DNA of 21,250 bases from Cafeteria roenbergensis (taxonomy: Eukaryota; Sar; Bigyra; Bicosoecida; Cafeteriaceae). The notes under the pieces are model-generated. The model ran no database searches. It was given only the letters and a program-made list of their open reading frames with translations, and was not told the origin of the DNA. The position numbers were made by a program, and so were the translations under genes. Shown in pieces: positions 1,314 through 19,849 of this stretch; position 1 is the stretch's first letter, and every line of letters starts with the position of its first letter. The DNA lies in the NCBI GenBank assembly GCA_008330645.1, contig VLTN01000133.1:1-21250 (forward strand). The letters are read 5' to 3'.

Positions 1314-4300
1314 AGCCACTGCCGCTGACTGCCCCGCATCAGTGACCCCCATGCCACCCTGCACGGAGGGCGACGGCGCCACGGCTGCATCGTCAGCTCC
1401 CGGCAAGGGCTTCTCCCTTTGGTCACCCGCGCCGGGCAGAGCTGCGCGGCCGCCGCCCTCGCTGCAGGGGGCTGCACTGCGCTGGGACGGAGAGCCGCCC
1501 CCGGCCCCGTCGGCCGCGCGAAGCCGCCCCCTGCCCCCTCTGGTTGGTCGGCGGGGCGGAGGCAGCGAGCGGGCGCGGCGCTCCTCCGCCTGCAGCACTG
1601 CCGCGCACGCGCCCACGACTGCCTCGCTGTGTTCCTCGGCCGCATCGCCCAACGTCGTCATGGTGGCGGCCACGCAAGCGAAGCAGGCCGCTCGGTACTC
1701 GGCGTCGTCGAGGGACAGCGCCAGCCTCGGCGCGCGACCAGCTTGCGGCGCCGCAGGGCTCGCGCCGGGGGCCAGGCCGCGCGTGGCGCCTCGCATGCTC
1801 GATGCGAGCACCGCCCCCGCCCACCGCGGCAGCGTTGCGCCACACTTGCGAACAGCCCGTGACACCGCCTCCGCGAGCAGCGTGCGCACGTACGGGGCGG
1901 CGGAGCTCGCGGCATGCACCCGCAACAGCGGCAGCATGAGCGTGTCTGCGCTCGCGTCCACCAGCGCCGCAGTGGCCTCCACCGCGGCCAGGTGAACGAA
2001 GCTGTCGGCGTCGGCCAGCGAGGCCAGACACACTTCGCAGAGGTCCCGCAGGCGGGTCTCGTCCGCCACGAGCGCCGCCCGCAGGTGACGGGCGCGGGCG
2101 GCGTCTCGCAGCTGCCGGAGCCCTGCGCCCCGCAGCGCCGGCTCGGCGTCCCGCGCCAGCGACAGCGCCTCGGCGATGCGGCCGCGGAGCTCCGCCGAGC
2201 TGGCGGCTGCGGCCGCAGCGGCAGGGTCAACCGGCCCCGCGGCCGCAACCGCAGCCAGCAGCGGCTCCGAGGCCATTGCTCCCGCGTCGGCGCCGGGCTC
2301 ACCGGGCACGCTCCACGCACAGAAGGACACAACGGACATGCGGAGGGCGAGGGCAGTGGAGCAGAGCGCTGGCGGAAAGAGCGGCGTGCCGTCTGCTGCC
2401 CCTCGGGGCAGCCAGCGACGGCCGCCAGGGCCGCCAGTACACGCCTTGAGAGACGCCGTCACACGGCTGCAGCAGCGGGGTCCGGTGAGGGGGGCGGGGC
2501 CGTCGACGGCTGCAGCGACCAGCGCCAGCGCGACTGGCACGGCGCCCACCGCCGCCGCCAGTGCCTCCGCGTGGTCGGTCGCGGGCACCGGCGCCGCCTG
2601 TTTGCCCGTGGCCGAGGCGCCCCGACCGCCCCCCATGTGGCGCCGGTGCGGCGTCGGCGGGAGCGAGCACAGCCTCCGCAGCCGCTAGAAGGGTCGCTGC
2701 GGCAGCAGCCGCGTGCCGCTGCGAGAGTGCCAGTACGTGTCCTGCCCGCTCGAGCGCCACTGAGCACGCCGCGGTGGCTGCGGCCGCGCGCCTGCGCAGC
2801 TCGAACACGCCTGCGCCACCTCCGCGCCGCTCGCTCAGCCCAGCCCCGCTCACGCCCTCCAGGCTCTCGCCGCGCGCGCGCAGCGCAGAGTCCAGCTCTG
2901 ACCGGCACTGCCTCTGGTGGTCGAGAAGCGCCAGCACCACGTCCGCGGCCGCCGTTGCGCTCAGCGTCCCCGCCGCGTCGCGCGGGGCGTCGTCGCTGGC
3001 CGCCGGGGGCGCTGACGCTGATCCGTCAGCGGCACTCGCGGCGGTCGGGCCTGCGGCATCAACGCTTGCCCCAAACGCGGTGCCGGCACCAGCATCCGCC
3101 CCAACTCCCGCTGTGCTGGCGAGGACGTCTGCCAGAGCCGTTGCGGCCAGGTCCTGACTCGACACCTGCTCAGCAACCCCCATTCCCGAGACCCCGGCGC
3201 TTACAAAGGCACCGGCACCGGCACCAGCATCCTCTTGCGGCACGTCTTTCCCCGCACCGCCAGCATCCTCGAACTCCGCACCCGTTGTCTCCGCACCCGT
3301 AGTCTCCGCACCGGCTGCATCGGCGTCGCTTGCGTCAGCAGCTCCGTTGGCGTGACCCGCGGCCCCGCTGTCTCGGCCCCACGCCGCTGCCGCGCCGCGC
3401 TGCAGGGAGACGCAGGCCAGCCCGCCGTCGGGCGACGGCCGGAGCACCGGTCCAGCCTCCGCGCTCCACGGCACCGCCACCGCCCGCACAGCCCACAGCC
3501 CGCGAGCCCTGCCAGCCGCCCCAAGCAGCCGAGCAACGGCCGCCCGCGCGTCCGACGCCAGCCGCGCCCTCCCCGTCGCCTCCGCCGACCCTGCGACTCT
3601 GCAGAGCCCGCGGCCGACCCAGCTCCCCAACAGCCGTGCCACTGCCGGCGAAACCGCCTCCGCCTGGCACAGCACCAGCAAGCTTTCGATCAGCGACTCT
3701 AACCGAGGCTGCGCGGCGGAGCCCGCGGCTGCCGCCTCAGCGCCCCCGGCGCCGGCAACCCAGCCCGCCGCAGCGGGGGCCACGAAGGCGACGTCGACTG
3801 CCAGGCCGGATAGGCGCGCGAGGGGGCGCAGCCAGTCGCCCAGCACCGCGGCGCGCACTGCCTCTGCCCAGCCGGCGGTCGCTGCCTGCTGCGAGCAGGT
3901 GGCGAGGGCGGCGGCCAGCGCCGCCGTGGCGGTGGCTGCGAGGGCGCGGCGCTGGTCGGGGGTTACGCGCGAAGCCGCGACGGCGGCTTTGCCGGCTGCG
4001 CCGTGTGTTGCGAGTGCAAGCGCGGCCACCTGGCGGACGCAGCTGCGTGCCACGAGAGCCCGGATGGCGGTGGCAGACGGCGCCATGGCCCGCCCGGCTG
4101 CCTTTGCGCCGCCCGCTGACTCGCTGTCAGCCAGCGCAAGCGCAGGCTTGCCCGCAGAACGCTCGGCGCTTTGCCCAGGCTCGGCGGCAGAGCTCGATGC
4201 CGCCGGCTCCCCGGGCAAGCCAGCCCACCGGGCGACGGCAGCGGCCGAGGCCTCGCGGCCACTGCACGGGTCTGCCACGAGCGCGTCGGCCAAGCGTCTG

Positions 4301-5304
4301 CTCGCCGCCACCACATGCGCGTCCGCCGTGTCGTCCAGCAGCGCCAGCGTGACGGCGGCAGCGCCGCCTGCCAGGGAGGCTTGCTGCCCATCGGCCGTCC
4401 ACCACTGCAGCGGGGCGCCGGTGACGGCGCGACTCGCGGGGCCGGCCGCATCGCCGGCCCGGCCGGCGCCAGCACGCCCAACGCGCCAAGTCGCCTCGGC
4501 GGCGGCAGAGGCGGCGGCACTGCTGCTGCCGCCCCTTCGCTGGCTGCCAAGCATGCAGCCGCACACCAGCCCGCGCACCGCCACGGCAAACCACGCGGGC
4601 GGCGCGCGGGCGGCCCCTGCCCCCGGCAGAGCCCTCATCACCGCGCGGGCCCTGTCCGTTGGGGGCAGCAAAAGCAGCAGGTCCCACACGAGGCCCATGG
4701 GCCCGGCCGCGGGCCCCGCTGGGCGGGACGCGCCAGGGTCCTCCGCCACCTGGATGCCAGCGCGCACGACGTCGGCAGCGAAGCGATCGACGAGCAGTGG
4801 GTGCGCCGCTGGCCGCAGAAGCGGCCCGACGAGCGCGGAGAGCGCGGCCGCCAGCACGGCCCCCCGGCAGTCGGCTGCCGAGAGGGCTCCCGGCGCGGTT
4901 GGCGACCGGGTCGGCGGCTCGGAGCGGATGGCACTGCGAGCAACTGCGAGCGCCTTGGGCGGCAGGCCCAGCGCGCGCAGGTCGGCCCGCTTGGCCGGGG
5001 GCGGGCAAACCCCGAGCTCAGACGGGGCGGCGACGCCAAAGGCCGCCACCAACTCAAGCGCCGCTGCCACCGCCGCAACAGCGCCCATGCTGACAGTCTG
5101 CTCCTCCGCGACTGCCGCCCTGGAGCTGCTTGCCGGCCGCCTCGCTGCATCGCTTGGAGCAGCCGTCGTGACCGACGCGTCCACCGCGGCAATGCACAAC
5201 ACCCTGAGGCGCGCCAACATCGCGAGCACATCGTCGCTTGTCGCGGGTGGCTTTGCCACATAGCCTCGCACGCCTGTGCGAAGCGCTTCGGTGGCCTCGG
5301 ACAT
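686..5304 (-). CDS. TANGO6/RTP1-like HEAT-repeat protein, reading frame broken at two places
   Basis: TANGO6 and yeast Rtp1 are cytoplasmic HEAT-repeat proteins; Rtp1 helps assemble and import RNA polymerase II. The best-supported part is at about 2192-1650: a helix ending LRGAGLRQLRDAAR, then LCEVCLASLADADSFVHLA and further helical pairs, as in the RTP1_C1 domain. A poly-Glu/Gln/Ala linker follows, then LREASDSSSDPTVRGHA near 1062-990, which fits RTP1_C2. The N-terminal 889 codons (start at 5304) are Ala-rich helices with little I recognise. The three parts lie in different frames. The first switch coincides with a run of six G (minus strand, about 2634-2639). The second lies near 1085-1120. 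Each is cured by skipping one base. The C-terminal frame stops at 686. An unseen intron around 2300-2640, or two separate genes, remain possible. The length, about 1535 codons, exceeds the roughly 1100 aa of animal TANGO6. Confidence 0.6.
1202..1313. repeat. Three abutting trinucleotide microsatellites
   Basis: A CCT/CTC tract (about 1202-1247), a CTG tract (1248-1279) and a CCG tract (about 1284-1313) follow one another. In the TANGO6-like frame on the minus strand they encode, in gene order, a poly-Ala, a poly-Gln and a Glu-rich run, which sit between the RTP1_C1- and RTP1_C2-like parts and so probably form a flexible linker. Confidence 0.9.
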
Positions 5305-5602
5305 GTTGAGCCTCCGTGCCGCAGGCCACTCAGCCAGCCAGCCAACTGCGGAGCCGCCCGGTCAGCCTCCCCGCCCCGTCCGGAACGCCCCCGATTGTGG
5401 CGCGTGGTGCGCCTCCAAGTGTGGCTGCGTGCCGGCAAGGCTGCGCAAAACACTCACGCCGCCGGCAGAGCCCAGGCGGGCGGTCTGCGGCCGGGACGCC
5501 CGCCACGTTCGACGCAGCCTCACTCCGGCGCGGTCCGAGAGGCACGCGGAGGCAAGCCGGCGAGCCGGAAGAGCCCCGCCCTGCGCAGCCCGCACAGCAG
5601 AC
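5305..5602. promoter_or_regulatory. Divergent intergenic promoter region
   Basis: These 298 bases separate the start of the TANGO6-like gene (minus) from the start of the E2 gene (plus), so both promoters should lie here. The sequence is GC-rich. I see no TATA box, CCAAT box or other recognisable element on either strand. Confidence 0.4.
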
Positions 5603-6320
5603 ATGTCCCTCAGGGGAGGCAGCTCCGCGCCCCTGAGCAAGGTCGCCATGCGCAGGCTTCTCACGGAACTCGAGTCCCTGGCCGCGACCCGCCGCCGCTC
5701 ATTTCAGCGTGCCCCGTCTCGGAGGAAAAGGTGGCACGAGTGGGACTGCGTCATTGTTGGGCCGGATGACACGCTCTACGCTGGCGGCGCGTTCCGCCGC
5801 CAAGCTGCTGTTCCCGTCGCAGTACCCCATGCAGCCGCCGAAAATGGTCTTCACCTCGGCCATGTGGCACCCCAACATCTACAAGGGAGGAGACGTGAGC
5901 GCTCGTCGCAAACTTGCCTTGCCGGAGTGCCGCCCCCGCGCTCGGGACCCCGGGCAGCCCCTGGCCGACCGCCAACTTGAGGCTGCGGCGCCAAATGCCA
6001 CGCGTCGGCCCTTGCCCCGCCACCTGCTGCCCTCCCGTTGTTTGCGTCGACCGAACCGTGCCTGATCGCAGCGAGATGGCGAGGTGTGCATCTCCGCGCT
6101 CCACCCGGCAACGGGCGACCCAATGACTGGCGAGACTGTCTCCGAGCAGTGGTCGCCGGCCCGCACGATTGAGAGCATCCTTCTCTCTGTGCAGTCCATC
6201 CTAGCCGAGCCCAACCTCAGCTCGCCAGCGAACGTGGATGCGGCGGCGCAGATGCGGCGCGAACCAGACGGCTTCCGCGCCAAGGTTCGCGAGACAGTTC
6301 GGCGGAGCCTGGCTGCGTGA
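5603..6320 (+). CDS. UBE2G/UBC7-type ubiquitin-conjugating enzyme E2, two exons, exon 1 frame-disrupted
   Basis: E2 enzymes accept ubiquitin from E1 on a cysteine and pass it on with E3 ligases; UBE2G2/UBC7 acts in ER-associated degradation. Exon 1 (5603-5894) gives the N-terminal helix [13 protein letters not shown], the [13 protein letters not shown] loop, [26 protein letters not shown] and the HPN triad WHPNIY (His codon 5868). The intron 5895-6083 is GTGAGC...GAG, phase 0. Exon 2 (6084-6320) has the catalytic Cys ([11 protein letters not shown] at 6087), the acidic insertion [13 protein letters not shown] typical of UBE2G/CDC34, [20 protein letters not shown] and a C-terminus RRSLAA close to UBE2G2. 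Expected product is about 175 aa, against 165 for human UBE2G2. Exon 1 is not one frame: one base is missing near 5684-5689 and single extra bases occur near 5730-5732 and 5795-5799. CDC34/UBE2R is the alternative family, but its long acidic tail is absent. Confidence 0.85.
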
Positions 6321-6918
6321 GAGGGTGCCCCTTTTGAACGGCCCACTCCATTGTCTTGCATCGATCACGTGCGTTGTATGCCTCTCTAGGCCTTGACAGG
6401 TTTGTGTGCATGTGAGTGCACACAGTCGGCGTTGGCTGGCGCCGCCGTGCCCACGCCGCGCCGCTCACGACGGCAATCCCGGCTCCCGCTGCTTGCCACC
6501 TGAACCAACCGCGAGCCGGCAAGCCCCGCGTCATCGTGGTGCGCTGCTGGCCCGTTCGGCAGAAGACTCTCAGCGTCGTGCTGCACGCACGCAGCTCCGC
6601 CCCGCTCCGCCCCTGTGGCGCACACGAGGGCCAGGCTGGCCGGCCAGCCACGGAGCGCGGCGAGCATTCGTGTGGCAGAGTCGAGTGCCTCTCCTCCGCT
6701 GCCACCCCTCAATTCATCACTTTGGTCCCGCCGCGCTGCAGCTGGGGCCGGAGCGAACGCGACGTGTGCAGACTGCGCCGACGCTCGGGCAAGGGAGGCC
6801 GGCAAGCCGCGCAAACCAGCGCCACGAAGGGTGCCTGCCGCGGAAGGCGCTCGATGGCCTCCTGCTTCGCCGTCAACAGTGCCTCGCACGCTGCAGCCGC
6901 CGGCTGGCGACTTGAGAG
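6321..6918. other. Intergenic stretch with no recognised gene
   Basis: The stretch is GC-rich. A 167-codon open frame on the minus strand (6386-6889) and several overlapping frames exist, but their composition is that of GC-driven shadow frames and none shows a domain I know. No polyadenylation signal is obvious right after the E2 stop. Confidence 0.4.
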
Positions 6919-6983
6919 TATTGTCGTCCAGATATAAAAGGCATAGACTAACAGTCTATGCCTTTTATATCTGGACGACAATA
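6919..6983. repeat. Perfect 31-bp-arm hairpin with a 3-base loop
   Basis: Arms 6919-6949 and 6953-6983 are exact reverse complements around the loop AAC. Each arm holds a TATAAAA string (6933-6939, and mirrored at 6963-6969). The stem continues imperfectly: ACTTG lies outside both arms, separated by AGAG on one side and CC on the other. It could be a foldback element, the terminal part of a MITE, a small-RNA precursor or a transcription terminator; the sequence alone does not decide. Confidence 0.95.
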
Positions 6984-7094
6984 GGCAAGTGTTTCACTTT
7001 TTTAATTTGTCCATATATTCACTTTTGTTTTTTTTATATTTAAATATTTTTTCTGAATATTTAAATATTTTATTTATGCTCATTTTTTGATATT
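6984..7094. other. AT-rich island
   Basis: About 110 bases made mostly of T and A in an otherwise GC-rich window, with two copies of ATATTTAAATATTTT-like sequence (near 7036-7050 and 7057-7072). It directly adjoins the B2 end of the retrotransposon. Read on the minus strand, AATAAA occurs just beyond B2, so it could supply a polyadenylation signal for the element, or be the AT-rich target it entered. Confidence 0.7.
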
Positions 7095-7240
7095 TGAACC
7101 CTGTGGTATCGGTGGTATTGAGGAGTGCCGGCCCGAAGTAGCTGTGTAGGTTGGCGCCGGCAGACGCGTGAGTGGCAGAAAGGACTCGATTGGAGGGAGA
7201 GTCCAACAGCACGGCGGGCAGAGCCAGAGCGGCTCTGCCC
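7095..7240 (-). repeat. Split direct repeat B2 (3' end of the retrotransposon)
   Basis: It matches B1 (7516-7661) at a constant offset of 421 bases without length change. Only scattered substitutions are seen, apart from the 5-base spacer of its terminal palindrome, which is inverted. The outer edge lies at TGAACCC (7095); partial similarity (ATAT) runs a few bases further out. Confidence 0.9.
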
Positions 7241-7241
7241 G
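7215..7241. repeat. Palindrome at the inner edge of B2, candidate recombinase site
   Basis: Eleven-base inverted arms (7215-7225, 7231-7241) flank the asymmetric 5-base spacer AGAGC. An arm-spacer-arm layout is the usual form of tyrosine recombinase sites, but no binding evidence exists. Compare 7631-7667, where the spacer is reversed. Confidence 0.7.
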
Positions 7242-7279
7242 AGGGCTGGGAGAGGTGGGAAACGAATTCACGCGCGCAC

Positions 7280-7503
7280 GCACAGACAGGAGGGCGACGA
7301 GGTCGCCTGTTGCGTTGGGTGGAGCGTGCGCACCCGTTGCTGGGAGCCGAGAAGGCAGCGAGCGAGTGCTCGGCGAGGGAGTCCTCAAGTGTGTCGGTTC
7401 AGGGCGCAGGCCATGAGGCCCTTTTCCCTGGGCAGAGTCATCGGGCGGCAGAGCCGCCCGAGCGGTACGCACCTACCCCGTAGGTTCAACCAAACGACCC
7501 TAC
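7280..7503 (-). repeat. Split direct repeat A2
   Basis: Matches A1 (11644-11878) from GCACAGACAGG to GACCCTAC, with an 11-base deletion relative to A1 after GCCGCCCGAG. It contains a 9-base inverted repeat, TCGGGCGGC/GCCGCCCGA around AGA, and ACCTAC-CCC-GTAGGT near its outer end. Bases 7241-7279, between B2 and A2, have no counterpart beside A1 or B1. Confidence 0.9.
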
Positions 7504-7515
7504 GGTCATAATATA

Positions 7516-7661
7516 TGAACCCTGTGGTATCGGTGGTATTGAGGAGTGCCGGCCCGAGGTAGCTGTGTAGGTTGGCGCCGGCAGACGCGTGAGTGGCAAG
7601 AAGGACTCGATTGGAGGGAGAGTCCAACAGCACGGAGGGCAGAGCCGCTCTGGCTCTGCCC
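7516..7661 (-). repeat. Split direct repeat B1
   Basis: Follows the recombinase ORF stop by about 66 bases in the direction of transcription and joins A2 through about 12 AT-rich bases (7504-7515). It is the copy matching B2 at 7095-7240. Confidence 0.9.
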
Positions 7662-7667
7662 TCCGTG
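7631..7667. repeat. Palindrome at the inner edge of B1, spacer inverted relative to B2
   Basis: Sixteen-base perfect arms (7631-7646, 7652-7667) flank the 5-base spacer GCTCT. The same position in B2 has AGAGC, the exact reverse complement, so the palindrome has been flipped in one copy. Confidence 0.85.
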
Positions 7668-7727
7668 CCGCCCATGGCCACTTACGGACGTAGTAGGAGG
7701 GCGCTGCAGAGCAGCCAACGGCTGGGC

Positions 7728-8933
7728 TCAGGACGCGCCCACTCCGATGGTGCGGACGTAGCGGCGACAGGCGTCGGCGCTGGACCAGCCGCCTAGGGTG
7801 GCGAGCTGGCCCAGGGTGAAGCCGCCCCGTGCCACCGCTTCGCTGGCGCTGGAGATCCTCGTCGTGTGGAGCGATACGGCGAGGTCCGTGTGCTTCCGAA
7901 GGAGGTCCAGCACGTCCTTGGCCGTGGCGCCTCGGCCGTCCGCGAGGCGCCACAACGGCTCCTCAGGCGACGCGCCGCGCTCTCGACGCCAGACGACCCA
8001 CGCGCGAATGTTCCTGGCCGCATTGAGGCCGCACGGATGGCACTCGGGCGAACCCGGGGAGCAGCTGGCCCGGATAGTGGTGACCCCGCCCTTCCGATCG
8101 CCCTTCACCGTGGTGCGTAGGTCCACCAAAGGGAAACCCTTGGGGCAAAGGCCGACGGTCACGTGGCCCAGGGGCATGGGGACAGGCTTGCAGCTGTCCG
8201 CACGGGACTCGGTCAGGTACTCCGAGGATCGACTCACCGTGTCAAAGCAAAAGGCCAGCGCCAGGCGGCATGCCAGAGGCGCGGACTTGTCGCTGCGTGC
8301 GTCGAGGAACGCGCGTCGAGGCACCGGGGGTCGCGTGTCAACGGTCTTCGGTAGCCACGCCGCGAGCCCGACCGCCACCAGCTTGTGGGCGCGCACGTCT
8401 GGCGTGTTGTGGACACCGATCGTGCGGCCGGCGAAACCGGTAATGGCGCCGATGTAGCTAGACACGGCCGCAGCGCTCAGGTACAAGCACTCGCGGGACG
8501 CGAGGAATGCGAACAAGGCCGCGGCGTCGTCGGCGATCAGCCGTAGCCGGGGAAAAGCGTGGCCGAGGAGGCGGCTGCGGCGAGCGTACCACCGGACGGC
8601 CGAAATGGACGTGATACGCTTGGACGTCTTGTCGCAGAGGGCGACCAGGGCGGCATCGCCTGGGCCATACAGACGGGGCAGGCTTGCGAACGGCTCGCAC
8701 TGTACGGTCCGTGCGCTGCCTCCGAGGTGGAACGCAGCCGCGTGGGCTACCGCCTCGCAGAATGTGAGGAGGCCATCCCACGATGGAACGGCCCCAGTCG
8801 CCGCCCACAGTGAGGGCGCGCGGGGATCCAGCGTCCAGGTTTCAGGCACGCGCCGAAAAGATAGCTGTGCCGCCGTCAGGACACGCGGTACCAGCTCGGA
8901 TCCGCTCGCACCGTGGGCGAAGGATAATGCCAT
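7728..8933 (-). CDS. Tyrosine recombinase of the retrotransposon
   Basis: A 401-aa protein that would integrate the circular cDNA through a covalent 3'-phosphotyrosine intermediate. The C-terminal catalytic domain shows the family residues in order: Arg235 (TVSRSSEYL), a Lys near 278 in the beta-hairpin region (TTVKGDRKG), His356 and Arg359 (SLHTTR, HxxR), Trp383 in the His/Trp position (GGWSS) and Tyr392 (RRYVR). Residues 105-170 (ISAVRWYARRSRLLGHAF to IGAITGFAGR) fit the N-terminal core-binding helices. A Cys/His cluster, C291, C298, H299 and C301, lies between the catalytic Arg and HxxR. The ORF overlaps the end of the RT-RNase H ORF by 92 bases in another frame, typical of these elements. 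The start at 8933 is the first Met; how the second ORF is translated is not visible. All catalytic positions are filled, so it may be functional. Confidence 0.9.
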   Translation of the reverse strand: MALSFAHGASGSELVPRVLTAAQLSFRRVPETWTLDPRAPSLWAATGAVPSWDGLLTFCEAVAHAAAFHLGGSARTVQCEPFASLPRLYGPGDAALVALCDKTSKRITSISAVRWYARRSRLLGHAFPRLRLIADDAAALFAFLASRECLYLSAAAVSSYIGAITGFAGRTIGVHNTPDVRAHKLVAVGLAAWLPKTVDTRPPVPRRAFLDARSDKSAPLACRLALAFCFDTVSRSSEYLTESRADSCKPVPMPLGHVTVGLCPKGFPLVDLRTTVKGDRKGGVTTIRASCSPGSPECHPCGLNAARNIRAWVVWRRERGASPEEPLWRLADGRGATAKDVLDLLRKHTDLAVSLHTTRISSASEAVARGGFTLGQLATLGGWSSADACRRYVRTIGVGAS

Positions 8934-11556
8934 TGACCCGCGCCGACCGGATTGTGGGGGCCACGCGCTCCCACGCGTGGCGGAGGCCCGCGGCCCAGGT
9001 GGCAGAGCCGGCCGCGAATTCTTCGGTGAACGCGCAGTTGTGGCGGCTGATCAAGTCGGCCGCCTCGTTTTCGACGCCTGGTATGTGCATCGCCTCCAGG
9101 AAAATACGGTTGTCAAGCAGGAGGGCGGCAAGGGCCTCGCCGAGGTCGTCGGCGTGCGCCGAAGCGGAACTGGCCTTCCCGCAGGACGCGGCCAGAGCTG
9201 CCATGTTGTCCGAAAACAGGCGCACCGACCTGCCAGCTAGAGCGTCCGCCATGGAATGGACCACGTGCACGACCGTGAGCAATTCCGACCTCGTGGATGC
9301 CGGCACGCGGGCGTCGTACTCGACCGTGATCGCCGTGGGGAGAAGGCCACGGCCCCGCGCACCGTCGTGCAGTGCGCCGTTGGCCACCGATGATGCCGCG
9401 AGAGCGACGGCGCCGCCCCGAGAGGACGATGCATCCGTGATTAGCGTGACGGCTGGAAACTTGTCCGGGAACGCCCGGCGGCACACGTCGGAGACGGGCC
9501 AGACGCGGCGCACGAAGAGGCTTCGTAGGCGGCCGGCGCCCGAGGCCGCGGCCCGAGAGAACCAGGCACCCGAGGCGGCCCCCGAGAGAGCCTGGCGCAG
9601 CCGGCGTAGCCAGAGCCCGACCGGCGGAGCGACGCACGCCAACCAGCCAAGGGGACCCAGCAGGCGCCGCAAGGAAGGGGGCGACACGGCCCCGCAGACT
9701 GCGACGGATGCCAGTTCCTGCTCGAGGGATTCCGCCAGGGCGGGAGCGTAGCCGATGGTGGCCTCTGGGCCGGCCGTCGAGATGGAGAGGCCAATCCACC
9801 GAATTGAGGTGCCCGGCGGGGGGCACTTGGCCTCAGCCATTGGGAGCCCCAGCGCGGAGAATCTGCGGATGACCGACAGACGGAAGGCGTCCGCCTCCGC
9901 CCTGGTGCCGACCATGTAGCCCAGCGTGTCGTCGCAGTAGCTCACGACGCGGGCCCTGCCATCCGCGCGGCGGAGGCTCTTAGCCACCGCGTGAACGATG
10001 GCGTTCATGGCGCTGGACGACCACCGTGATCCCATGCTGCAGGTGGTAACTCGGTACGTGCGGCCCGCCCACCGCACGGCCGCGGCCCCTCGCGCTTGGG
10101 CCGAGAGCATGATGCGGCGGAAGGCCGTCGTAATGTCCCACGACATGAGGAAGACGGACTGGCCCGGCGCCGGGCTGGGCGCAGTACGCAGCCAAGCCGC
10201 CACCCCCGGGATGGACACGGTGGCCGGGAAAGGCAGGCGGCTGGTGTCGCAGGCGCCGTTCGGCCCGCGTATCTTCCCCGAGCGGGATCGGCTGCTGTCG
10301 TCGCAGATAAGCCGACCCCGACCGCTTGCCTTCGCGACAAGGCTGAGGGGGCTCGGCGGCGGTGCCCGCGCCCCGGGGGGAACGGGGACGATCCACCAGT
10401 TGTCGGCGTCCCGCTGGAGCAGCGACTGGACAGAGTCCGCGGTACCGGCGTTGTCCAGGCGGTTCGGACGAGGCTGGAAGGCCGCGACGGGGTGCGAAAG
10501 CTCCGCCGGGGCGCCGAGGAGCGCGCACGCGAAGGCGTGGTGCCAGGACGAATCACCCGGGCGCCGGAGCTCCCGCAGGACCGCGACAGGGCAGAGTCGG
10601 GGCACGTCAGGATTGGCGAGCGGAGCCACGATGGGAAAGTCCACCAGCGTGCAGGGCGAGCCGTCGTGGCGGGCGCCGGCCGACGTCGCGGCCTCGTTCG
10701 CCGCCGCGTCGACGGCCGGAGCAAGGACGCCGGAACGGGACAGCTCGTCGAGCCACGTGCTCAGCTCCTTCGGCGGAACGGAGTGGACGTCCATGTCATT
10801 AGCGGCGAGGAGGGCCGCCGCGCGGTGGAAGTGTACAGAGGGGGATCCGGGGGCCGCCCACGACTGCCCCGAGGATGAGACCAGTTGTGGGGGTGTCGGG
10901 ACAACCGGGGCCGGCGTAGTCAGCGAACAGCGGTATCGCTCGGCGGCTGGGCTGGCCCGGTATGGCGCGGTGGTCGGCACACGGGCCGAGGGCCGCAGGG
11001 GCACCTCGGCCGTCTCGCCGCATGGGGACTCGCCGGGCGTGGGCTCCGGGTCCGGCGTGCTGCCCGGCGGGGGCCCCGGCGGACCGTCCTCTTGGGCGGA
11101 TCGCCGCCGACCCACGGTGCCGGGCTTCGGCGCGGGATCCGGAGCGACCGGGGACAGCGGCCGCGCGCAGCCGGGCGGGGCAGCGCGAAGCCGGAGGGGC
11201 CGGGCCCGCGTCGTGGGGCACAAGCGCCCATCGGGTGGGCGCCCCCGATGCGGCCAGGGCCCGCTGGGGTCCCGGTGCCGTGGTCCCCGCGCGACCGCCA
11301 GGGCGAGGTTGTAGGCGCGTGGCGTTGGCGTGGCCGCGGCCGACGGTTCCTCGTGTGTGCGGTTAGTGCTCGGTTGTGCGCCAGTGCGCGCGTCGGCTGG
11401 GACGGCGCGCTCCTCCCGCATCACTCCGCGGAGGCGCCGAGTCAGCGCCGCGGAGAGCCTCGAAAATCCGACCGGCCAACGCGAGGCAGACCCCCTAGCC
11501 GCTCGGCGAGAGAGGTGGCCGTACCCGACGCGCCGGCGGCCGCGAGCCGGGCCCAC
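8842..11556 (-). CDS. Reverse transcriptase-RNase H polyprotein of the retrotransposon
   Basis: A 904-aa protein that copies the element RNA into DNA and removes the RNA template. Residues 1-240 are Pro/Arg-rich without a recognised domain and may be a gag-like remnant or linker. Residues 380-550 form the RT core: LSLVAKASGRGRLICDD, the catalytic Asp474 in MSWDITTAFRRI, and the YCDD box (540-543) in place of YxDD as YADD. RNase H lies at about 700-840 with Asp708 (LITDASSSRGG), Glu758 (RSELLTV), Asp783 (LFSDNMAAL) and Asp834 (ENEAADLISR), the full DEDD set. No protease, methyltransferase or DDE integrase is seen. The ORF begins only about 88 bases inside A1, so there is no room for an upstream gag gene. 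The first Met (11556) is used by default; Met46 is an alternative. Confidence 0.9.
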   Translation of the reverse strand: MGPARGRRRVGYGHLSRRAARGSASRWPVGFSRLSAALTRRLRGVMREERAVPADARTGAQPSTNRTHEEPSAAATPTPRAYNLALAVARGPRHRDPSGPWPHRGRPPDGRLCPTTRARPLRLRAAPPGCARPLSPVAPDPAPKPGTVGRRRSAQEDGPPGPPPGSTPDPEPTPGESPCGETAEVPLRPSARVPTTAPYRASPAAERYRCSLTTPAPVVPTPPQLVSSSGQSWAAPGSPSVHFHRAAALLAANDMDVHSVPPKELSTWLDELSRSGVLAPAVDAAANEAATSAGARHDGSPCTLVDFPIVAPLANPDVPRLCPVAVLRELRRPGDSSWHHAFACALLGAPAELSHPVAAFQPRPNRLDNAGTADSVQSLLQRDADNWWIVPVPPGARAPPPSPLSLVAKASGRGRLICDDSSRSRSGKIRGPNGACDTSRLPFPATVSIPGVAAWLRTAPSPAPGQSVFLMSWDITTAFRRIMLSAQARGAAAVRWAGRTYRVTTCSMGSRWSSSAMNAIVHAVAKSLRRADGRARVVSYCDDTLGYMVGTRAEADAFRLSVIRRFSALGLPMAEAKCPPPGTSIRWIGLSISTAGPEATIGYAPALAESLEQELASVAVCGAVSPPSLRRLLGPLGWLACVAPPVGLWLRRLRQALSGAASGAWFSRAAASGAGRLRSLFVRRVWPVSDVCRRAFPDKFPAVTLITDASSSRGGAVALAASSVANGALHDGARGRGLLPTAITVEYDARVPASTRSELLTVVHVVHSMADALAGRSVRLFSDNMAALAASCGKASSASAHADDLGEALAALLLDNRIFLEAMHIPGVENEAADLISRHNCAFTEEFAAGSATWAAGLRHAWERVAPTIRSARVNGIILRPRCERIRAGTACPDGGTAIFSARA

Positions 11557-11643
11557 AGGTCAGCCTCCGTCGCTTCGGGTCGTCCCGCCAGGCGCTTCAG
11601 GGTAGCGAGGCGGTCCTTGGGGGCGGCCCGGCCGACCGCGCAA

Positions 11644-11878
11644 GCACAGACAGGAGGGCGACGAGGTCGCCTGTTGCGTTGGGTGGAGCGAACACACCCG
11701 TTGCTGGGAGCCGAGAAGGCGGCGAGCGAGTGCTCGGTGAGGGAGTCCTCAAGTGTGTCGGTTCAGGGCGCAGGCCCCGTGGCCCTTTCCCCTGGGCAGA
11801 GTCATCGGGCGGCAGAGCCGCCCGAGCCTCGCCCAAACGGTACGCACCTGCCCCGTGGGTTCAACCAAACGACCCTAC
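11644..11878 (-). repeat. Split direct repeat A1 (5' end of the retrotransposon)
   Basis: Copy of A2 (7280-7503). The match ends at GACCCTAC (11871-11878), and the next base begins another repeat (11879-12037). As the 5' terminal repeat it should contain the element promoter, but I see no TATA box. Confidence 0.9.
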
Positions 11879-12037
11879 CACCGGGTGAGCTCGCTTCTCG
11901 GAGGGCGCAAAACGATTGACGATCGGCGAGGTACAGCTCTGCCGTAGAAAGCAGAGCCACATGCGCTCGCAAGGTTTAGCGGTAGCGTTTCGATGCCAAC
12001 CAAGTTGTACAGCAGCCCTAGATTTCGATCATTTCCA
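11879..12037. repeat. Direct repeat R, copy 1
   Basis: 159 bases from CACCGGGTG to GATCATTTCCA, nearly identical to 12216-12374. It starts at the base after the retrotransposon end. It contains an internal stem, GCTCTGC/GCAGAGC around CGTAGAAA. Confidence 0.95.
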
Positions 12038-12215
12038 GGCAGAGTGGAGGCGAGAATCGCCGATGCTGACCTTATGGCTAAAGATTCGGCTCGGCGGGGA
12101 CCGCCAGGGTCGCCCGAGGGACGGGAAGGTGGGTCAAACGAGTTCACGCACACACCACACGGGGCGCGCGCGAGACGGTACGGGGTACGACCCGGGAAGC
12201 CCACGTGGGCTTGAG
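12038..12215. other. Segment between the two R repeats, A2-like in position
   Basis: 178 bases without a gene. Near 12122-12143, AGGTGGGTCAAACGAGTTCAC resembles 7253-7272, which lies between B2 and A2 of the retrotransposon. A perfect 16-base palindrome, AAGCCCACGTGGGCTT, lies at 12197-12212, close to the edge of R copy 2. Together with R it could be a B-A-B relic of a related element. Confidence 0.5.
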
Positions 12216-12374
12216 CACCGGGTGCGCTCGCTTCTCGGAGGGCGCAAAACGATCGACGATCGGCGAGGTACAGCTCTGCCGTAGAAAGCAGAGCCACATG
12301 CGCTCGCAAGGTTTAGCGGTAGCGTTTCGATGCCAACCAAGTTGTACAGCAGCCCTAGATTTCGATCATTTCCA
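12216..12374. repeat. Direct repeat R, copy 2
   Basis: 159-base copy of 11879-12037 in the same orientation, with only a few substitutions (for example GTGCGCTCG for GTGAGCTCG). Unrelated sequence begins at 12375. Confidence 0.95.
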
Positions 12375-12449: not shown

Positions 12450-12843
12450 ATTGGTTCGGAATCCGGTTGGGTTCATCTTTGTCCGCAGACGTAGATTCTA
12501 CCCCGGCGAAACAGACGAGCCATCTGGCATCGTCACGACACTCTCTTGGGCTACGCGGCTTCCCAGCAGCGTGCTGGGGGTGCCCCCGGCGTGACTCAGA
12601 GAGTCCCGAGCTCTAATCTTCCCGCCTGCGTTGGCGGCCAAGACAAGCAGCTCGCTGGCAAGGCGCGCGCAGCGTGCGCTTCGCTTTGCCCGCCGTGCCG
12701 TGCGAACGTTCGCACAGCACGCCAGGGCCCGTTGCGGTCGGCTTTGAGGTTGTGTGAGGGCAAAGCCGCATTCGTGACCCGCCCGCCCATCCCGCGGCAG
12801 GCTGGGAGGTGGCTTGCGAGGTTTCAGTGCCCCTGTGGGTGCA
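12450..12843. other. Repeat-flanked non-coding stretch
   Basis: No gene is recognised. It includes a perfect 16-base palindrome, GTGCGAACGTTCGCAC (12700-12715). The open frames that cross it have no known domain. Confidence 0.4.
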
Positions 12844-12914
12844 GACTCCGAGCAAGGCACTGCCACTCCTAGCCTGCTGGCGCCGGACACCTAACAGGTG
12901 CCCATTTGGCCACT
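12844..12914. repeat. Direct repeat S, copy 2
   Basis: Diverged copy of 12379-12449 in the same orientation and of the same length. Confidence 0.85.
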
Positions 12915-12989
12915 GCTGTGTTTGTGATGTAAATCTTGTGCTGCTGTCCCCTCGAGTTGAGAGGCCGCCTTCAGATGCGGCAACAACAC

Positions 12990-13095
12990 CGGGCCCGCTC
13001 TGCCCCACGGCAGGCGCGGGCCATCCCGACCCGCTCGCAAGCCCGCCCTCTGGGCGAGCACTCCGACCCGAGCCCGCGTGGGGGCTCGCCGGCCG
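12990..13095. repeat. Direct repeat T, copy 1
   Basis: Repeats at an offset of 165 bases (13155-13260). Shared strings include GCGCGGGCCATCC, CCCGCTCGCAAGCCCGCCCT and GAGCCCGCGTGGGGGCTC. Confidence 0.85.
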
Positions 13096-13154
13096 TATCC
13101 CGTTCCCGCCGCGCGCATGCGTTCCGACTAGCGCGTGAGCGGTCTCGACCACAT

Positions 13155-13260
13155 GACCCCGGCTCTGCCTCACGGCAAGCGCGGGCCATCCGACCCGCTC
13201 GCAAGCCCGCCCTTTGGGCGAGCACACCGGTTCGAGCCCGCGTGGGGGCTCACCGGCCGC
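13155..13260. repeat. Direct repeat T, copy 2
   Basis: Copy of 12990-13095. Read on the minus strand, its GAGCCCCCACGCGGGCTC region and what follows also resemble the junction at 12197-12245, which ties it to the R array. Confidence 0.8.
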
Positions 13261-13264
13261 ACCC

Positions 13265-13380
13265 GCACCCGTACCCGCCGTACGCGCGCGCCCCGAGTGG
13301 TGTGCGTGTGCTCGATTCGATCGTTTGACCCCTCCCTCCCGTCCCTCGGGCGACCCCGTGCGGTCCCCGCCGCGCCAAAC
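13265..13380 (-). repeat. Inverted, diverged copy of 12086-12185
   Basis: Read on the minus strand it shares, in the same order as 12086-12185, GGCGGGGACCGC, GGTCGCCCGAGGGACGGGA, GGTCAAACGA and CGGGGCGCGCGCG, with short indels. With repeat T it makes 12960-13380 an inverted relative of the R array. Confidence 0.8.
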
Positions 13381-13533
13381 TTAAGCCATTTGAGTCAACA
13401 CCAGTCCTCCACCAACAAGCGGCCTCTCAACGCCCACTCAGGTCAGCAGATGCGTGATCGCCATTCCCCACGATCACACACACCAGGATGAATCGGTGGC
13501 GTCGTCGGACAGCAGATTGAAAATGGCACAAGC

Positions 13534-16500
13534 TCACCTCCAGCCACAGGCTCGGCGCCACAAGGCCAGGCTTGCGCGCCGATGCCAACGCTGGAAGCAG
13601 TCAGCTCGCTCAAGCACCCTTGCCACTGAGTCGTTGGCGGCAACGGAGAGCGCAGTTTCGCCGGCCTGTGAGCAAAAACAAACAGGGCTCCGTGCAAGCA
13701 AACAGTGCATTGTTCAGCGCCAAGACGAGCGCTTCGAGAAAACCAACAGCAGCGCAGGACGTGCGGGGCACGAAAATGCCGCTGCCCGACTCTTGTTCGC
13801 CTGCAAGGAACGTGGAGCAGCCCGAGCCGAAACCAGGCGCAACTTACGACATTGGTCACCTCCACGTCTGCGCCCCGATCCAGCAGCTCCCGCACCATGG
13901 ATTCCGTGCCCGCGGATGCAGCCGTCAGCAATGCGTTCCAGCCATCCTGTGCTCATGCCGCCCGGCCCACGATGTACGCTCTTGTTGAGAGGCAATGGTG
14001 CCCACAAGCGAATGGAGGCAAAGGCGTCCCAAGCTTGCCAAGAGAAGCGAGTCGCGCGCACAGCGGATGGTCGGCCGCGTGACAGCTCCCGAGTGCGACC
14101 CTCCTCACGTGATCGCAGGCTTCGATATCAGCACCTGCCTTCAGAAGTAGACCAGCAGCACCGAGACGGCGCATTCGCAGCGCAATCAGCAGTGGCGGGG
14201 CACTGGCGCCTGCGCCTGGCAGCAATCCCAAACTCCGTGCCGCCTCCTCTACCCAGGGCGGAGCCCTGGCTTCGCCCGCGGCCTCGACCCCGGCCACGAC
14301 TGGCCTGGCCACCACCGGCATCGCGTGGAAAGGCGTGAGGGAATCGGTGCGAACCACCCAGCACCGAGGCGGGGCCGCCGGCGACGCAGCCCCGGCAGAC
14401 GCGACCGAAATCGCGGCGCCTCCCGGAGCCGCGGCCCCAGCGTCCGAGTGCGAGGCGAACTTGCGGTGCAGCGCTGAGGAGGGGGCGAAGGGAACGGGCA
14501 GCTGCAGCGGAGGGGGGTCCTGCGCGTCGGGCCCAGCATCCACGTTGACGCGGCAGGCGCACAACGCGCACCACAGCCGGCGCGACGGCGCTTCTGCGGC
14601 GGGAATGGTGCCGCCCGAGAGCGACGAGGCTGACAGCTGGAAGGACCCAGGGGGGCGGGCGGGGCTCACTGGCTCTGCCTCGAGCAAGTCTCGCACCCCG
14701 CGGGTGCCGAGCGCTCCGGCAGCAGGCGACGGGTCGGCGTCGATGGCCACAGTCGCCGCCTCCTGCGCGGCCTGAGGTCCTGCCCAGCTCAGCAGCTGCC
14801 CAGGCGAGCGCTGCTGAACCGGACTGACGCGCCGGGGAGCCTGTCGGGTGGCGGCCGCGTGCCCGGCGGCAGAAGAGCTTGGCACAGAGGGCGGCGCCTG
14901 GTGCTGGCTGGTGGCAGGGGGAGGCGGAGGGACCTGGGCCTGTGCCGAGGCACAGGCGGGTGTGCCAGCGAGGCCGCTCCCCCGCGGACTGCTAACAGGC
15001 GAACTTGAAGCATCGGACGACGACGCCGACGAAGGGGCCTCGGACTGGTTCCCGGGCGCGGGCAGGGCGCCCTGAGAGGGGCGCTGCGGCTTCGCCAGCT
15101 GCTTCTGCGAGAATCCTGCAGTTGCTGTGAGGACCGACACCGCAGTGGACCCGTTCCGCACCCCAGCTTCTTGAAACTTGCGCACGAACCACGCGCTAAG
15201 GAGCGAGTCAGACGGGGGGCGCACGAGCTGCTCCCGCAGACGTGAGTCCACAAGGATGACCGAGCCCCAGTCGTTCGCGTGGCGGATGCAGCGCCCCAGT
15301 GCCTGGTTCAGCGCGCGGTAGGCTTGGTGACGGTACCACAGCCCGCCAGCAAGGGGCTCTTGCGATGCGCGGGCCGACCTCGCGCCGCGCGCAGGGCTGC
15401 TTGGCTGGGAGCCCAGTGGCAGCTGCAGCTGCCCTTGCGCCCCACTGGCTGCCTCTGCAGCCCTGTACTCAGATGACAGCTCGTCCTGGTACGCCTGCTT
15501 CAGCCTCACAGGCGCGTCCAGTGCGGCGTAAGGCGTGCCCACCAGAATCACGCCTCTGGCCGCATCGTCCGCGAAGTCGATTCCCTCGCTCACTTTTCCG
15601 CGGAACACCGCGAACAGCACTGCGCCAGTTTGAGCGTCGGCCGGCATGCCTGCCCCGGGCCCAAAGTCCGACCGCTCGCTCCACAGCCGCCGAAGCAACG
15701 GAATGCCTGATCGGAAGCCGCCCGTGTGGCCGCCGAGCGCATCCTGGCCTCGCCACCTCCCCCGCTGGCCTGCGCCCCGCCCCTGCCCAGCTCTCGCGGC
15801 CTGCAACCGAGCGCGCAGGCTTGCCGCCTCAAGCCTGCGCCTCCTCCCCGCGTCCCCCACGCTCAACGCCTCTCGACCCGCCGTGTCGACAGCGCCCAGA
15901 TCCGACTCCTCGCTGCTCGCGTACGCCGGCTCCCCGCTGTCTTCACCGCTTCCCTCGCAATCGGCGGCGCCACCGTCACCGACGCCGTCCGCGACAACGT
16001 AACTTTCACCGTCACTGTCACCTTCGCCGTCGTGGTCGCGGTTGCCCCAGCGGCGGCCGAGTGTGCCCGACGCCTTCTCGAACGACAGGCGCACGCCCTC
16101 GGCTGCGGAGGGTCGCGCCGCCGCCCCCCGGCTGCGCCGCTCGTCGGAGCGGGGATCGGACCTTGCCTTCACGCCGGCTGCCTCCTGCAGCTCTTCTCGT
16201 CCGGCGCGTCGCTGCCAGCGGCGAATCGACCGCACGTACTTGCGCATCACACGCTTAAAATGAGGGCCTTGCGAGCGGGGCTCCACGCAAAGGCGCTTAA
16301 ACGCGGCGAGGTGCTCCAGCGTGTTGGGAGGGCGCGTTGCCGCTTCGGCAGCAGCCTCGACCCCTTCCCCGGCGGGACGAAGCGCGTTGGCTGCCGTCAC
16401 CATCCGCGCAGGGCTCTCCGCCCAGCGCTCCACGCACCTCGTCAGTGTGTCGTACGACGGGAAAAACACCAGGAGGCCCCCAGGAATGCGCCCGGCGGCC

Positions 16501-17257
16501 TCGACGAGAAGCCTGCCCAGGGCGTCTTGCCACACGGCACTCTTGCGACTCACAGCCGAGCCGTCGAGCTCCACGCCGCAGCACTCGCTGACCCACGACG
16601 GAAGCAAAGACAGCCCTGCGTGGTGCGGAGCGCTCAGCCGCACGGGAAAGCTGGTGCCCAGCTCGCTCGCGAAGCTGTCTGCGGGAGACAGCGTGCCGGA
16701 CGTGAGAAGCACTGAGTGTGCCGTCGCCTGCACAGGGCTGAAGGCCACCGCGGCGTTGAGGCACCACAGGTCCAGCTGAACGTCTCCTTGGATCCAGCCG
16801 GGCGCTGCCACGGCGCGCTTGCGGGAGGAACGCCTCCCGCTCCCTGCCCCGCTCGGCTGCGCCGCGCTGCTGGCCGGTGTCACTCCCGAAGGGCCCGCTT
16901 CCAGGCCGTCAGCGTCGTCGCCAGAAGCGTCCACCCACTCTACGAAGCCGGCAGATGCGGCCTCGCCACCGCTTGTCTCGGAGCCAGCCCCTGCCCGGCG
17001 GCTCGCATTTGCCCAGGGCATTGGCCGGTGGCTGCAGTACCGCCGAGGCGTCCTGGCGAGGCCAAGTCTGAATGCGTCTGCCGCCGGCCGCTCTGCGCCT
17101 CCGCCCGCACCCAGGCCATCCCGAACCGTGGAGTGGAGAAACCCCAGTGTCTGCAGCAGCTCGCCCACCAGCGCAAGCGTGGCCTGCCCGGCCATCACTC
17201 GCATATTGCGGCCCCTGCCCCCGCCGCCACTGCTGCTGCTGCTGCCGCCGCCGCCGC

Positions 17258-17291
<34 letters not shown>

Positions 17292-19343
17292 GCCGCTGCT
17301 GCTGCTGCTGCTGCTGCCGTCGGGATCCTGCTTGCTGTCTCCGGCCTCGTCGTCGCCCACTGCTTTGAGCAGGCCAGCGAACGCCGCCACGGCCCTCGCA
17401 GACGGAACGCCCCACTTGGCGGCAGCTGCCTCGAGCGGGGACTTGGCCGTTGCAGCCTCACCACGAGGCTGCTTTCCTGACCACACGAGCGACGGCCCGA
17501 TTCGGGAAGAGTGCGGCGGACCCGTGGCAGAGCCAGCCGCCTTGATCGCCTCGGCTGCGATGGTCGCCAAGTCGTGCTCCGCGTCTGCTGGCTGTCCGTC
17601 GAGCGGCGCAACAGCGGCCACTACCTCGGCCCTGCTCGCCACGTCCTCTTGCCGCCTCCCTCGCGCGCAGGCGGCAACGGATTCCGGAACCCTTCCCAGG
17701 ACTTCGTCCATGATGTCACTGCCCAGCACGAGCCGAACTGTCGCCTCGCTCTTTCCCAGCTCTGCCGCCAGCGAAGTGGGCCGCTCGTCGAGCGGCACGA
17801 TGCCAGTTGACTGCCCAGCCCGGCCGCGGCCCCGCCCCCACCCGGCTCTGTCCCGTCCCCCTCGCGCATTGACGGAGCCTGCCTGGGCGGCCGCGGGCAG
17901 GTCCGGCGCCGCGCGCTCCGCCCACGCGCACACTCGCAGGAGCAAGCGGGTCAGCTCCCGGTACGCGGCGACCAGCTCCGGCACGACGGAGGGGTCTGGC
18001 TGCACGCTCACGCCGGCAGAGCCAGAAGCAGGGGGCGGGTGCCGAGCGTAGTAGGCGCTGATGGCGGCGCGTGCCATGCCCAGCGCTGCGCCCTTGAGCT
18101 CTTCCAGCCCCGTGGAGAAGGATGCCGCCTCTCGGCACTGGTCCTCGATGTTGTGCGCCTCATCCAGCACTACGGCGGCGCCGCTCAACTGCAGACTCAT
18201 CGCGGCGCGGATGGACGGGTTGATCAGGTAGGTGTAGGGGCACAGGATCAGATCTGCGGACTCTACCATGTCTCGCGCCGCATAAAAAGGGCAGCCGCCT
18301 GTCACCCGCCTGCTCGACCCGCCACCCAGCCGGCCGCGCGCGGTTGCTGCGTGGCTCATCGCCACCGCGTCCTCCACGTCCCACACAGGAGGGAGCGACA
18401 TGAGCAAGGATGTCTTGGCCGAGTAGTGAGGGCACTGCCTCCGCCGGAGCAGGTCCCTGCAGAGCTCGTCGCGCCCCAACAATTGACGAGACACGGAGTG
18501 GTGGACGCAGTACTGCTTGCGGGACCCCAGAGTGGTCATGCGGAACCGCGAGCGGCTGGAAGCCGCTGTGCAGCCGAGCTCACGGAGCCCGGTTGCAGAG
18601 CCGCCGCGTTCGGTTCCGTCCGAGTCAGAGTCTTCCCGGAGCCGGTGCGCGACGGACGCTGCCGATGTGCCCCACGCGCGCGGGCTGGCGGCGGCTGCGG
18701 CTGCGGGTGCTCCACCGCAGGATGAAGACGAGGTCGAAGATGAGGCGGACCCGCCGACCGCCGGGGCATCCACCGGCGCGGCCCTAGCCCGCCCTGCGCC
18801 CCCCTCGGTGCCTCCTTGCCCCGCAGGGCCCTGCGCCGAGAAGCCTTCCTCGCCGCCCTGCACCACGAATGCCCGATGCGAGTGGAAAAAGGAACAGCGT
18901 CGGAGCTCCTTGACCACTTGCCGCAGCTGAGAGTGCGTGCGCGACGCGAAAACAACCCGGGGCGCCCTCTCCCGCTGCGCGGCCGCGTTGTTCTCCTGCA
19001 CGCGCTTCAGCAGCGCCTCGATGTCTGGGGTCTCGTCGGCGTCCAGCGCGAGGGTCGCCTCAGCCTCAACGGCCGCTGCCCGCTTCTGCTGGCGCTCCGC
19101 AAGCCGCTCCCGCTCCGCACGCTGCCACGAGAGGGCGGCACACAGCAACGCGAGGGTCTTGCCCGTTCCCGTCGGCGACTCAAGCAAGGCGTTGGAGCCC
19201 GACTCCAGCGCCCGCACGGCAGCGGACATGAGCCCTCTCTGGGCCGGGAAAGGGGTGTGCGTGGCTGGAAAAAGCACGTTCAGACCGCACATCTTGAGAA
19301 CCTTGGCCCCGTGCGGCGCCTTTTGCCCTGCGGGAGCAGCCAT
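13534..19343 (-). CDS. BRIP1-like: FANCJ/BRIP1-type Fe-S DNA helicase with C-terminal ankyrin repeats (three exons)
   Basis: FANCJ is a nuclear 5'-3' DNA helicase of the XPD family acting in crosslink repair and G-quadruplex unwinding. Exon 1 (19343-14109) holds the Q motif (FPAQ), Walker A ESPTGTGKT (about 55-63), motif Ia FASRTHSQL, four Fe-S cysteines (C279, C295, C304, C351), DEAH (394-397), the FANCJ-like stretch VVLDEAHNIEDQCREAASFS, LTSGTLSPADSFASELGTSF (near 890), VSEGIDFADDAARG (near 1250) and YRALNQALGRCIRHANDWG (near 1350). Ser/Gly- and acid-rich inserts make it about 1821 aa against 1249 in human. A disordered tail with a WCALC motif leads, in the same frame, into an ankyrin repeat (LLLKAGADIEACDH). 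Exons 13946-13848 and 13665-13534 continue with DGWNALLTAASAG and AGETALSVAANDS. Introns (162 and 182 bases) are GTGAGG..CAG and GTAAGT..CAG, phase 0. Met at 19343 is chosen; an upstream Met (19445) would add 34 residues. Confidence 0.88.
17216..17321. repeat. Mixed CTG/CCG microsatellite in the helicase gene
   Basis: Interrupted CTG and CCG runs. On the coding (minus) strand they give a poly-Ser/poly-Gly tract located between the DEAH box and the second helicase lobe, where FANCJ has no conserved fold, so variation in length is probably tolerated. Confidence 0.9.
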
Positions 19344-19849
19344 GCCGGACGCACTGGTCCAGCTTTGCAACTCGGGCCTGCCAGGACGGCGCGCCCGCAC
19401 GGACGCCAGCGGGCAGCAATGACGAGAGCAGCGGCCGCCGTTCAATCGATCCCGATAGTCTGGCGGCGACGCGAGTCGCAGGGCGTCATCGGGTGCGCTC
19501 GTCCGAACAGCCGTTTGAGCCTGGGCTTGTCAATTTTCTGCGTTTAGGCAAGTGCTCTGCAGCGTCTCGGTTCGCGATGCCATCGCTTGCCTCGCCCCTC
19601 CTGTCCCTCGGGATGGCACGGAGGGCGACCCCGCGTGGTCCCCGGCACGCGCGACCTGAGCCTTCCAGCCTCCTTGGCCCCTTCACTCGCACGCGGCCTG
19701 CCGCCGCTCGGAACACGGCCGTCTGCACGGCACCGCTGCGCCGAGTATTGACCATTCGCGGCAATATTGCGGCTGCTCGCTCTGCAAGCAACGCCTCAGA
19801 CCACGGCGCACCCTCAGCAGCTCAAGCGCGGCTCGTTTCCCCGGCAGCC
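19344..19849. promoter_or_regulatory. Divergent intergenic region between the FANCJ-like and ankyrin genes
   Basis: 506 bases between the two starts, expected to contain both promoters. No TATA box is clear. Near 19600-19655, CTGTCCCTCGGG followed by GGGCGACCCCGCG and GGTCCCCG echoes GTCCCTCGGGCGACCCCG at 13341-13358, so a fragment of the dispersed repeat (or a shared promoter element) may lie here. The AUG of the ankyrin gene has a CAGCCATGG context. Confidence 0.45.

Follow-up and report, generated by a model that had tools for sequence, protein, structure and literature searches.

A damaged and probably mosaic Ngaro retrotransposon copy of Cafeteria burkhardae

Background

In the established model for retrotransposons with split direct repeats, RNA running from A1 to B2 (A and B being two repeats that each occur twice) serves as the template for reverse transcription. 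The ends are rebuilt by way of the internal B1-A2 junction, which makes A1 equal to A2 and B1 equal to B2 at insertion, and circular DNA is integrated by a Cre-like tyrosine recombinase (YR) without target duplication. We analysed a copy of such an element at 7095-11878 of a 21,250 bp stretch of Cafeteria DNA (GenBank contig VLTN01000133.1, hereafter the window), which is the whole of contig C133. Other copies are also named by their contigs, and the genome searched comprised 36,303,456 bases in 167 contigs. We are highly confident that the window copy is a damaged mosaic Ngaro element of Cafeteria burkhardae, with ORF1 (open reading frame 1) and the left tip lost.

The closest described systems are from the same organism. 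Hackl et al. (2021, PMC8547959) described 80 Ngaro elements of four types in four Cafeteria strains; their layout is A1-[ORFs]-B1A2B2, and both solo AB repeats and copies without ORF1 (type 2b) occur. As far as they are described there, types 1-4 share with the element studied here the layout, the ORF set found in its relatives, the ORF1-deleted variants, the solo AB repeats and insertion into virophages. The window copy probably corresponds to the ORF1-deleted type 2b of that study, the type name being taken from its description; the deletion is given as about 2 kb for type 2b, compared with about 1,648 bp in the window. In contrast to the described types, the left end of the window copy is 12 bp short as well, and the A1/B1 and A2/B2 repeats of this copy appear to come from two lineages.

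The family, its repeats, its ORF1-deleted forms and its solo AB repeats are therefore already known for this organism, and the element itself adds little. The original prediction had proposed an intact, useful reference copy; instead, the copy is damaged and mosaic, and the account of PMC8547959 had catalogued elements of this kind before. The mosaic and a pair of nearly identical copies (C8 and C20) are modest new observations, and we do not claim that the mosaic is absent from print. The shared ORF1 deletion and the changes in the A2-B2 module are details that may be of use.

More distant systems show the same plan in part. Ngaro elements of zebrafish, sea urchin and fungi, compared by description only, have split direct repeats downstream of YR, a reverse transcriptase (RT) with RNase H, a YR and, in those descriptions, no methyltransferase, as here. 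PAT, Kangaroo and Toc elements of the DIRS group also have split direct repeats and YR, but a methyltransferase, theirs by definition in the account of PMC4157794, was not found here. The terminal repeats of DIRS1 are described as inverted, whereas those of the window copy are direct. DIRS1 is similar in having RT-RNase H and YR, and it is not known to make a target duplication.

Structure of the window copy

The element lies on the minus strand of the window, in the split-direct-repeat order A1 - RT/RNase H - YR - B1 - A2 - B2. Through repeat alignment and end comparison, A1 (the 5' direct repeat) was placed at 11637-11878, 12 terminal bases short compared with other copies. It is followed by a remnant of ORF1 at 11447-11636, which by comparison with ORF1-bearing copies is just the last 190 bp or so of that gene (the low end is approximate). 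ORF2 (8842-11556; 904 amino acids with table 11 and a GTG start) was assigned to RT and RNase H through the ORF call, profiles and aligned residues, and its first ATG lies about 46 codons inside the open frame. ORF3 (7728-8933; 401 amino acids) overlaps ORF2 and encodes, by ORF call and YR alignment and profile, a tyrosine recombinase with a Cre-like C-terminal part.

The remaining repeats were placed by alignment. B1 is located at 7516-7661 and A2 at 7273-7515; A2 has an 11-bp deletion and, by its lineage sites, belongs with C112. B2, at 7095-7240, is identical to the B repeats of C112. The B1|A2 junction at 7515/7516 reads TTCA|TATATTATGACC.

The A pair, aligned over 11637-11878 and 7273-7503, differed by 12 mismatches and one 11-bp indel over 231 aligned bases, and the B pair (7516-7661 and 7095-7240) by nine mismatches in 146. 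Both pairs are direct and interleaved, and their similarity is far above chance level. These alignments confirmed the original prediction of two repeat families, each present twice in direct and interleaved order. Its claim of two open ORFs with catalytic residues also held (904 and 401 amino acids, with the RT motif YCDD, the RNase H residues D-E-D-D and six YR residues all present). It had further called the copy complete; the layout was right, but ORF1 is deleted and the left tip is missing.

Compared with the other B repeats that cover the same stretch, B1 (7516-7661) showed an apparent small inversion inside a hairpin or stem, which makes up part of the nine B1/B2 mismatches.

Relatives and the loss of ORF1

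Four other ORF-bearing copies of this family were found, in C7, C8, C20 and C112. Their YR proteins are 92-93% identical to that of the window, and the RT identity is 91-92% in C7, C8 and C112 and 76-93% in overlapping, frame-shifted pieces in C20. C8, C20 and C112 contain about 1,648 bp more between A1 and RT, with an ORF1 of about 600 amino acids that overlaps the RT frame; it is open in C8 and C112 and frame-shifted in C20. The ORF1 of C112 had no Pfam or PDB match, and the label "Gag-like" for this gene is described in PMC8547959 as inferred from synteny.

The window copy and C7 have the same gap of about 1,648 bp with the same junction, and because of this the ORF1 deletion is most simply read from the alignments as one shared, inherited event. 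The absence of the Gag-like ORF1 from the window copy was taken as damage of one copy and not as the mark of a different family. Loss of this gene appears to have come before the multiplication (or duplication) of the ORF1-less lineage. ORF2 of C7 contains one stop, at residue 101. Although its RT and YR genes are open, the window copy is probably not autonomous.

Two lineages in one copy

The canonical A-ORFs-B-A-B layout, with the internal repeats downstream of YR, was found in C112, C20, C53, C55, C69, C85 and C36, and the paired repeats in these copies are nearly identical. C112 showed no difference in either pair (0/243 in A, 0/146 in B), and C20 showed one in A (1/253) and none in B (0/146). 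The pairs of C53, C55 (the copy with RT at 118 kb), C69, C85 and C36, which belong to other families, are 98.8-100% identical, with one A of C36 cut by the locus end.

The two halves of the window copy point to different relatives. Among the five ORF-bearing copies compared from A1 to B1, two-state sites that the window has in common with a single other copy number 105 for C7, four for C112 and zero for C8 or C20; a further 113 sites are private to the window. A2, on the other side of the junction, carries the 11-bp deletion of C112 and shares five of 22 sites with C112 only versus none with C7 only. B2 has no difference from the C112 B repeat in 146 bases, with two C112-only versus zero C7-only sites of four. 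The best reading of these sequence comparisons is that an ORF1-less body of the C7 lineage (A1-ORFs-B1) carries an A2-B2 of the C112 lineage. The window copy would thus descend from the ORF1-less lineage that also contains C7. Recombination at or close to B|A would have supplied its A2-B2 half from the C112 lineage, and its 5' tip has been lost.

Several sites do not fit well to this mosaic. In A1, three of 20 sites are C7-only, but one is C112-only, and at five of 20 the window sides with C112 and C20 versus C7. A2 sides with C7 and C20 versus C112 at six of 22 sites, and its source would therefore be a relative of C112 rather than C112 itself. B1 has zero lineage-only sites. The contig also joins a left flank allelic to C85 to a right flank allelic to C22, and a chimera could mimic part of the mosaic.

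The last point needs to be considered further, and contig C133 may be either a haplotype rearranged here or a chimeric contig. At nearly 100% identity, window 3500-6918 corresponds to C85:78982-82397; the match of window 14194-16000 is to C22:18015-19821, at 99%. An assembly chimera, in which C133 joined two loci via repeats, would account for these matches to two different contigs and for a contig of just 21,250 bp, but the switch lies near B1|A2, where the lineages share a few hundred bases, presumably too short for the usual long-read overlap, and C85 and C22 both carry the satellite of the window end and may be neighbouring or subtelomeric. We consider such a chimera unlikely.

The other alternative is a single ordinary insertion in which A1/A2 and B1/B2 drifted apart with age and no mosaic was formed. 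The shared derived states speak against this, as drift does not produce them: the 11-bp deletion and five of 22 A2 sites are shared with C112 only, B2 is identical to that of C112 over its 146 bases, and the A1/B1 half shares 105 sites with C7; both ORFs are moreover still open. An old insertion would agree with the missing left tip, the old repeat debris around it, the divergence implied by the 113 private sites and the six of 22 A2 sites at which C7 and C20 are followed against C112. Taken together, we regard drift without a mosaic as improbable.

Gain and loss of the A2-B2 module

C7 and C8 end exactly at the TTCA of B1, without A2-B2, and C6 and C38, whose ends agree with these, consist of A-B alone (solo units). 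Six of 6,019 sites distinguish C8 from C20, yet only C20 has kept A2-B2; the C8 copy (L022) is in AT-rich virophage DNA and the C20 copy (L024) in GC-rich host-like DNA. In another family, the C55 copy with RT at 227 kb (L032 125-6454) contains a single A and a single B; its final base corresponds to that of the B repeats in C36, a copy with B1-A2-B2. The 3' end was readable in 11 ORF-bearing copies (the window, C7, C8, C20, C112, C53, two on C55, C69, C85 and C36), a count that excludes C12, which is truncated, and C156, which has diverged. Eight of the 11 carry B1-A2-B2, and the other three (C7, C8 and C55 at 227 kb) stop at B1. Together, the C8/C20 pair, the C55 copy and the mosaic in the window suggest the repeat junction as the place where an A2-B2 module is acquired or dropped.

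Both reduced forms can be explained by recombination between direct repeats, A-B alone through A1 x A2 and A-ORFs-B through B1 x B2, and repeat recombination was already proposed for solo AB units in the description of PMC8547959. Identical products would be expected if the recombinase of the element itself acted at B|A. We might speculate that A...B is the real mobile unit and that the B|A junction, TTCA|TATAWTATGACC, is a site which this recombinase keeps using, so that modules (A-ORFs-B as well as solo A-B) would be swapped, gained or lost there. We do not favour this modular arrangement and hold it to be doubtful, because most of what it would account for can also be explained by homologous recombination between A or B repeats. 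If it were true, the window would consist of a resident C112-type A-B unit to which a C7-type A-ORFs-B unit had been joined, and the lack of A2-B2 in C8 versus the 99.9% identical C20, as well as the end of the C55 227-kb copy at B1, would be accounted for. It would also offer a route for the Ngaro loss at virophage reactivation; that Ngaros may be excised when virophages reactivate is itself put forward as an inference in PMC10945749. With defined junction sequences, the mechanism by which Ngaros are removed from virophages becomes testable.

C12 was considered as a tandem array and rejected. Its sequence after A2 matches no other retrieved locus at the DNA level, only short scattered translated matches to L039 were found, and its match to C85 starts in the middle of RT.

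Proteins and class of the element

The window RT matched the Pfam model RVT_1 at 6e-07, and all nine sequences of the RT alignment matched it. The catalytic motif is YCDD, of which DD is invariant in alignments with three other families. In PDB, the RT profile best matched Ty3-type RTs, including 7q5b, which is so named; 4ol8 is presumably also Ty3. The RNase H residues D-E-D-D are present in ORF2 by alignment, and two Pfam RNase H models each matched two of the nine aligned sequences. For YR, all 12 aligned sequences, drawn from four families, share the residues R235, K277, H356, R359, W383 and Y392. All 17 PDB matches of the YR profile were Cre or Cre-derived (E 0.0012-0.027), and the Pfam model Phage_integrase was matched by nine of the 12 aligned YRs. 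Searching for RT and YR relatives in viral contigs gave 96 and 36 pattern matches, none of which was confirmed by tblastn.

The class of tyrosine-recombinase retrotransposons with split direct repeats was confirmed, and in this the original prediction was right, on the layout and on the RT, RNase H and YR residues. No methyltransferase domain was found in the RT or YR ORF at E<=10, and such a domain defines the DIRS group, PAT included, in the account of PMC4157794; for this reason the element fits Ngaro rather than PAT. Some Ngaro lineages are described there as clustering with long terminal repeat (LTR) elements, so finding this RT grouped with LTR elements would still be compatible with Ngaro. 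A PAT- or Kangaroo-type element, whose split-direct-repeat layout is identical, is very improbable given the lack of a methyltransferase in both ORFs, the place of PAT within the methyltransferase-bearing DIRS group (PMC4157794) and the classing of the Cafeteria elements as Ngaro by their authors (in the description of PMC8547959).

Three points count against this assignment. ORF2 of the window itself had no Pfam RNase H match, so that RNase H is present there as aligned residues; the window YR alone reached no Pfam integrase model; and the assignment rests on layout, domains and published descriptions of Ngaro, PAT and DIRS elements.

For the family as a whole, the route would be RNA, a DNA circle and strand exchange. 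What the sequences themselves show is the repeat layout, the near-identical canonical pairs, the exact shared ends, the RT, RNase H and YR residues and, for the most part in a sister family, the lack of target duplication.

Element ends and insertion sites

The original prediction had set the ends at 7095 and 11878, and comparison with the genome copies supported only the former. Terminal B repeats have TTCA at the equivalent of 7095 in eight of eight cases (including the window; the diverged C156 left out). On the left, all six other complete external ends (C6, C7, C8, C20, C38 and C112) begin 12 bases beyond 11878, with the sequence TAT(A/G)(A/T)TATGACC, which the window copy lacks. At 11878/11879 its A1 abuts a cut-off second piece of the AB repeat of another Ngaro family (11879-12037, minus strand), next to an AB unit of that family at 12038-12374 (minus strand), both identified through genome search.

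The AB unit of this sister family is 358 bp long and was found at at least 35 other places (40 of 167 candidates scored), at least two of which belong to full elements. Part of the 35 places were retrieved, and the units picked up were those with ends differing by two bases or fewer. After three of 26 sites were dropped for duplicate flanks, 23 non-redundant flank pairs remained, of which 21 were informative and two were A2-B2 of full elements rather than solo units. No target duplication of at least four bases was found in these 23 pairs; one pair matches over three bases and two over two, which is close to the shuffled expectation of 0.3 and 1.2. In our own family, six joined flanks showed no target duplication clear by eye. 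Such absence is expected for a tyrosine recombinase.

The insertion sites of the 358-bp AB units (L031-L056) showed a weak preference, with C immediately to the left in 15 of 23 and C at the first two bases on the right in none of 23. C119 was not counted as a solo unit; its A repeat is cut by the start of the contig, and on the right its flank is almost the same as that of C112.

Surrounding sequence

On the 3' side of the element, the match to C85 ends exactly at 6918. Beyond this break point C85 runs on in GC-rich, host-like sequence, and the window enters an AT-rich flank (6919-7094 by sequence composition; 24% GC over 6919-7093). A perfect 31-bp inverted repeat with a 3-base loop lies at 6919-6983, where the allelic C85 diverges and the AT-rich DNA starts. 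In the genome, the AT-rich stub matched only itself, and a 27-base part of the palindrome was found only once, at its own place, with up to three mismatches allowed. On the 5' side, from 11879 to about 14201, the window contains a repeat pile that includes AB repeats of at least two other Ngaro families (12038-12374 and 12454-12918). As to a host or virophage location, the surroundings of the window element thus consist of a 175-bp AT-rich stub and repeat debris.

A 530-bp repeat at 12919-13448 is present at many other places in the genome. A long minus-strand ORF at 13953-19445 contains DEAD_2 and Helicase_C_2 domains (an XPD/RTEL1-like helicase) and long low-complexity stretches. The contig end, 20488-21250, is repeat DNA that also occurs many times at C85:86-92 kb and at the start of C22, with a spacing of about 700 bp.

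Other Ngaro copies are located beside virophage-like genes. The C8 copy adjoins a gene for a virophage-like major capsid protein (L022 29-1876), which matched MCP_V20_C at 1.3e-16 and PDB 6g45 at E 3.2e-46; we take 6g45 to be the mavirus capsid. This neighbouring gene is one of the grounds for regarding strain BVI of C. burkhardae as almost certainly the host. The C112 copy adjoins an rve integrase gene (L023 131-1237; 2e-09) with a sub-threshold chromo match, and a gene for an A32-type ATPase (L030 7520-8320) lies beside a copy on C55.

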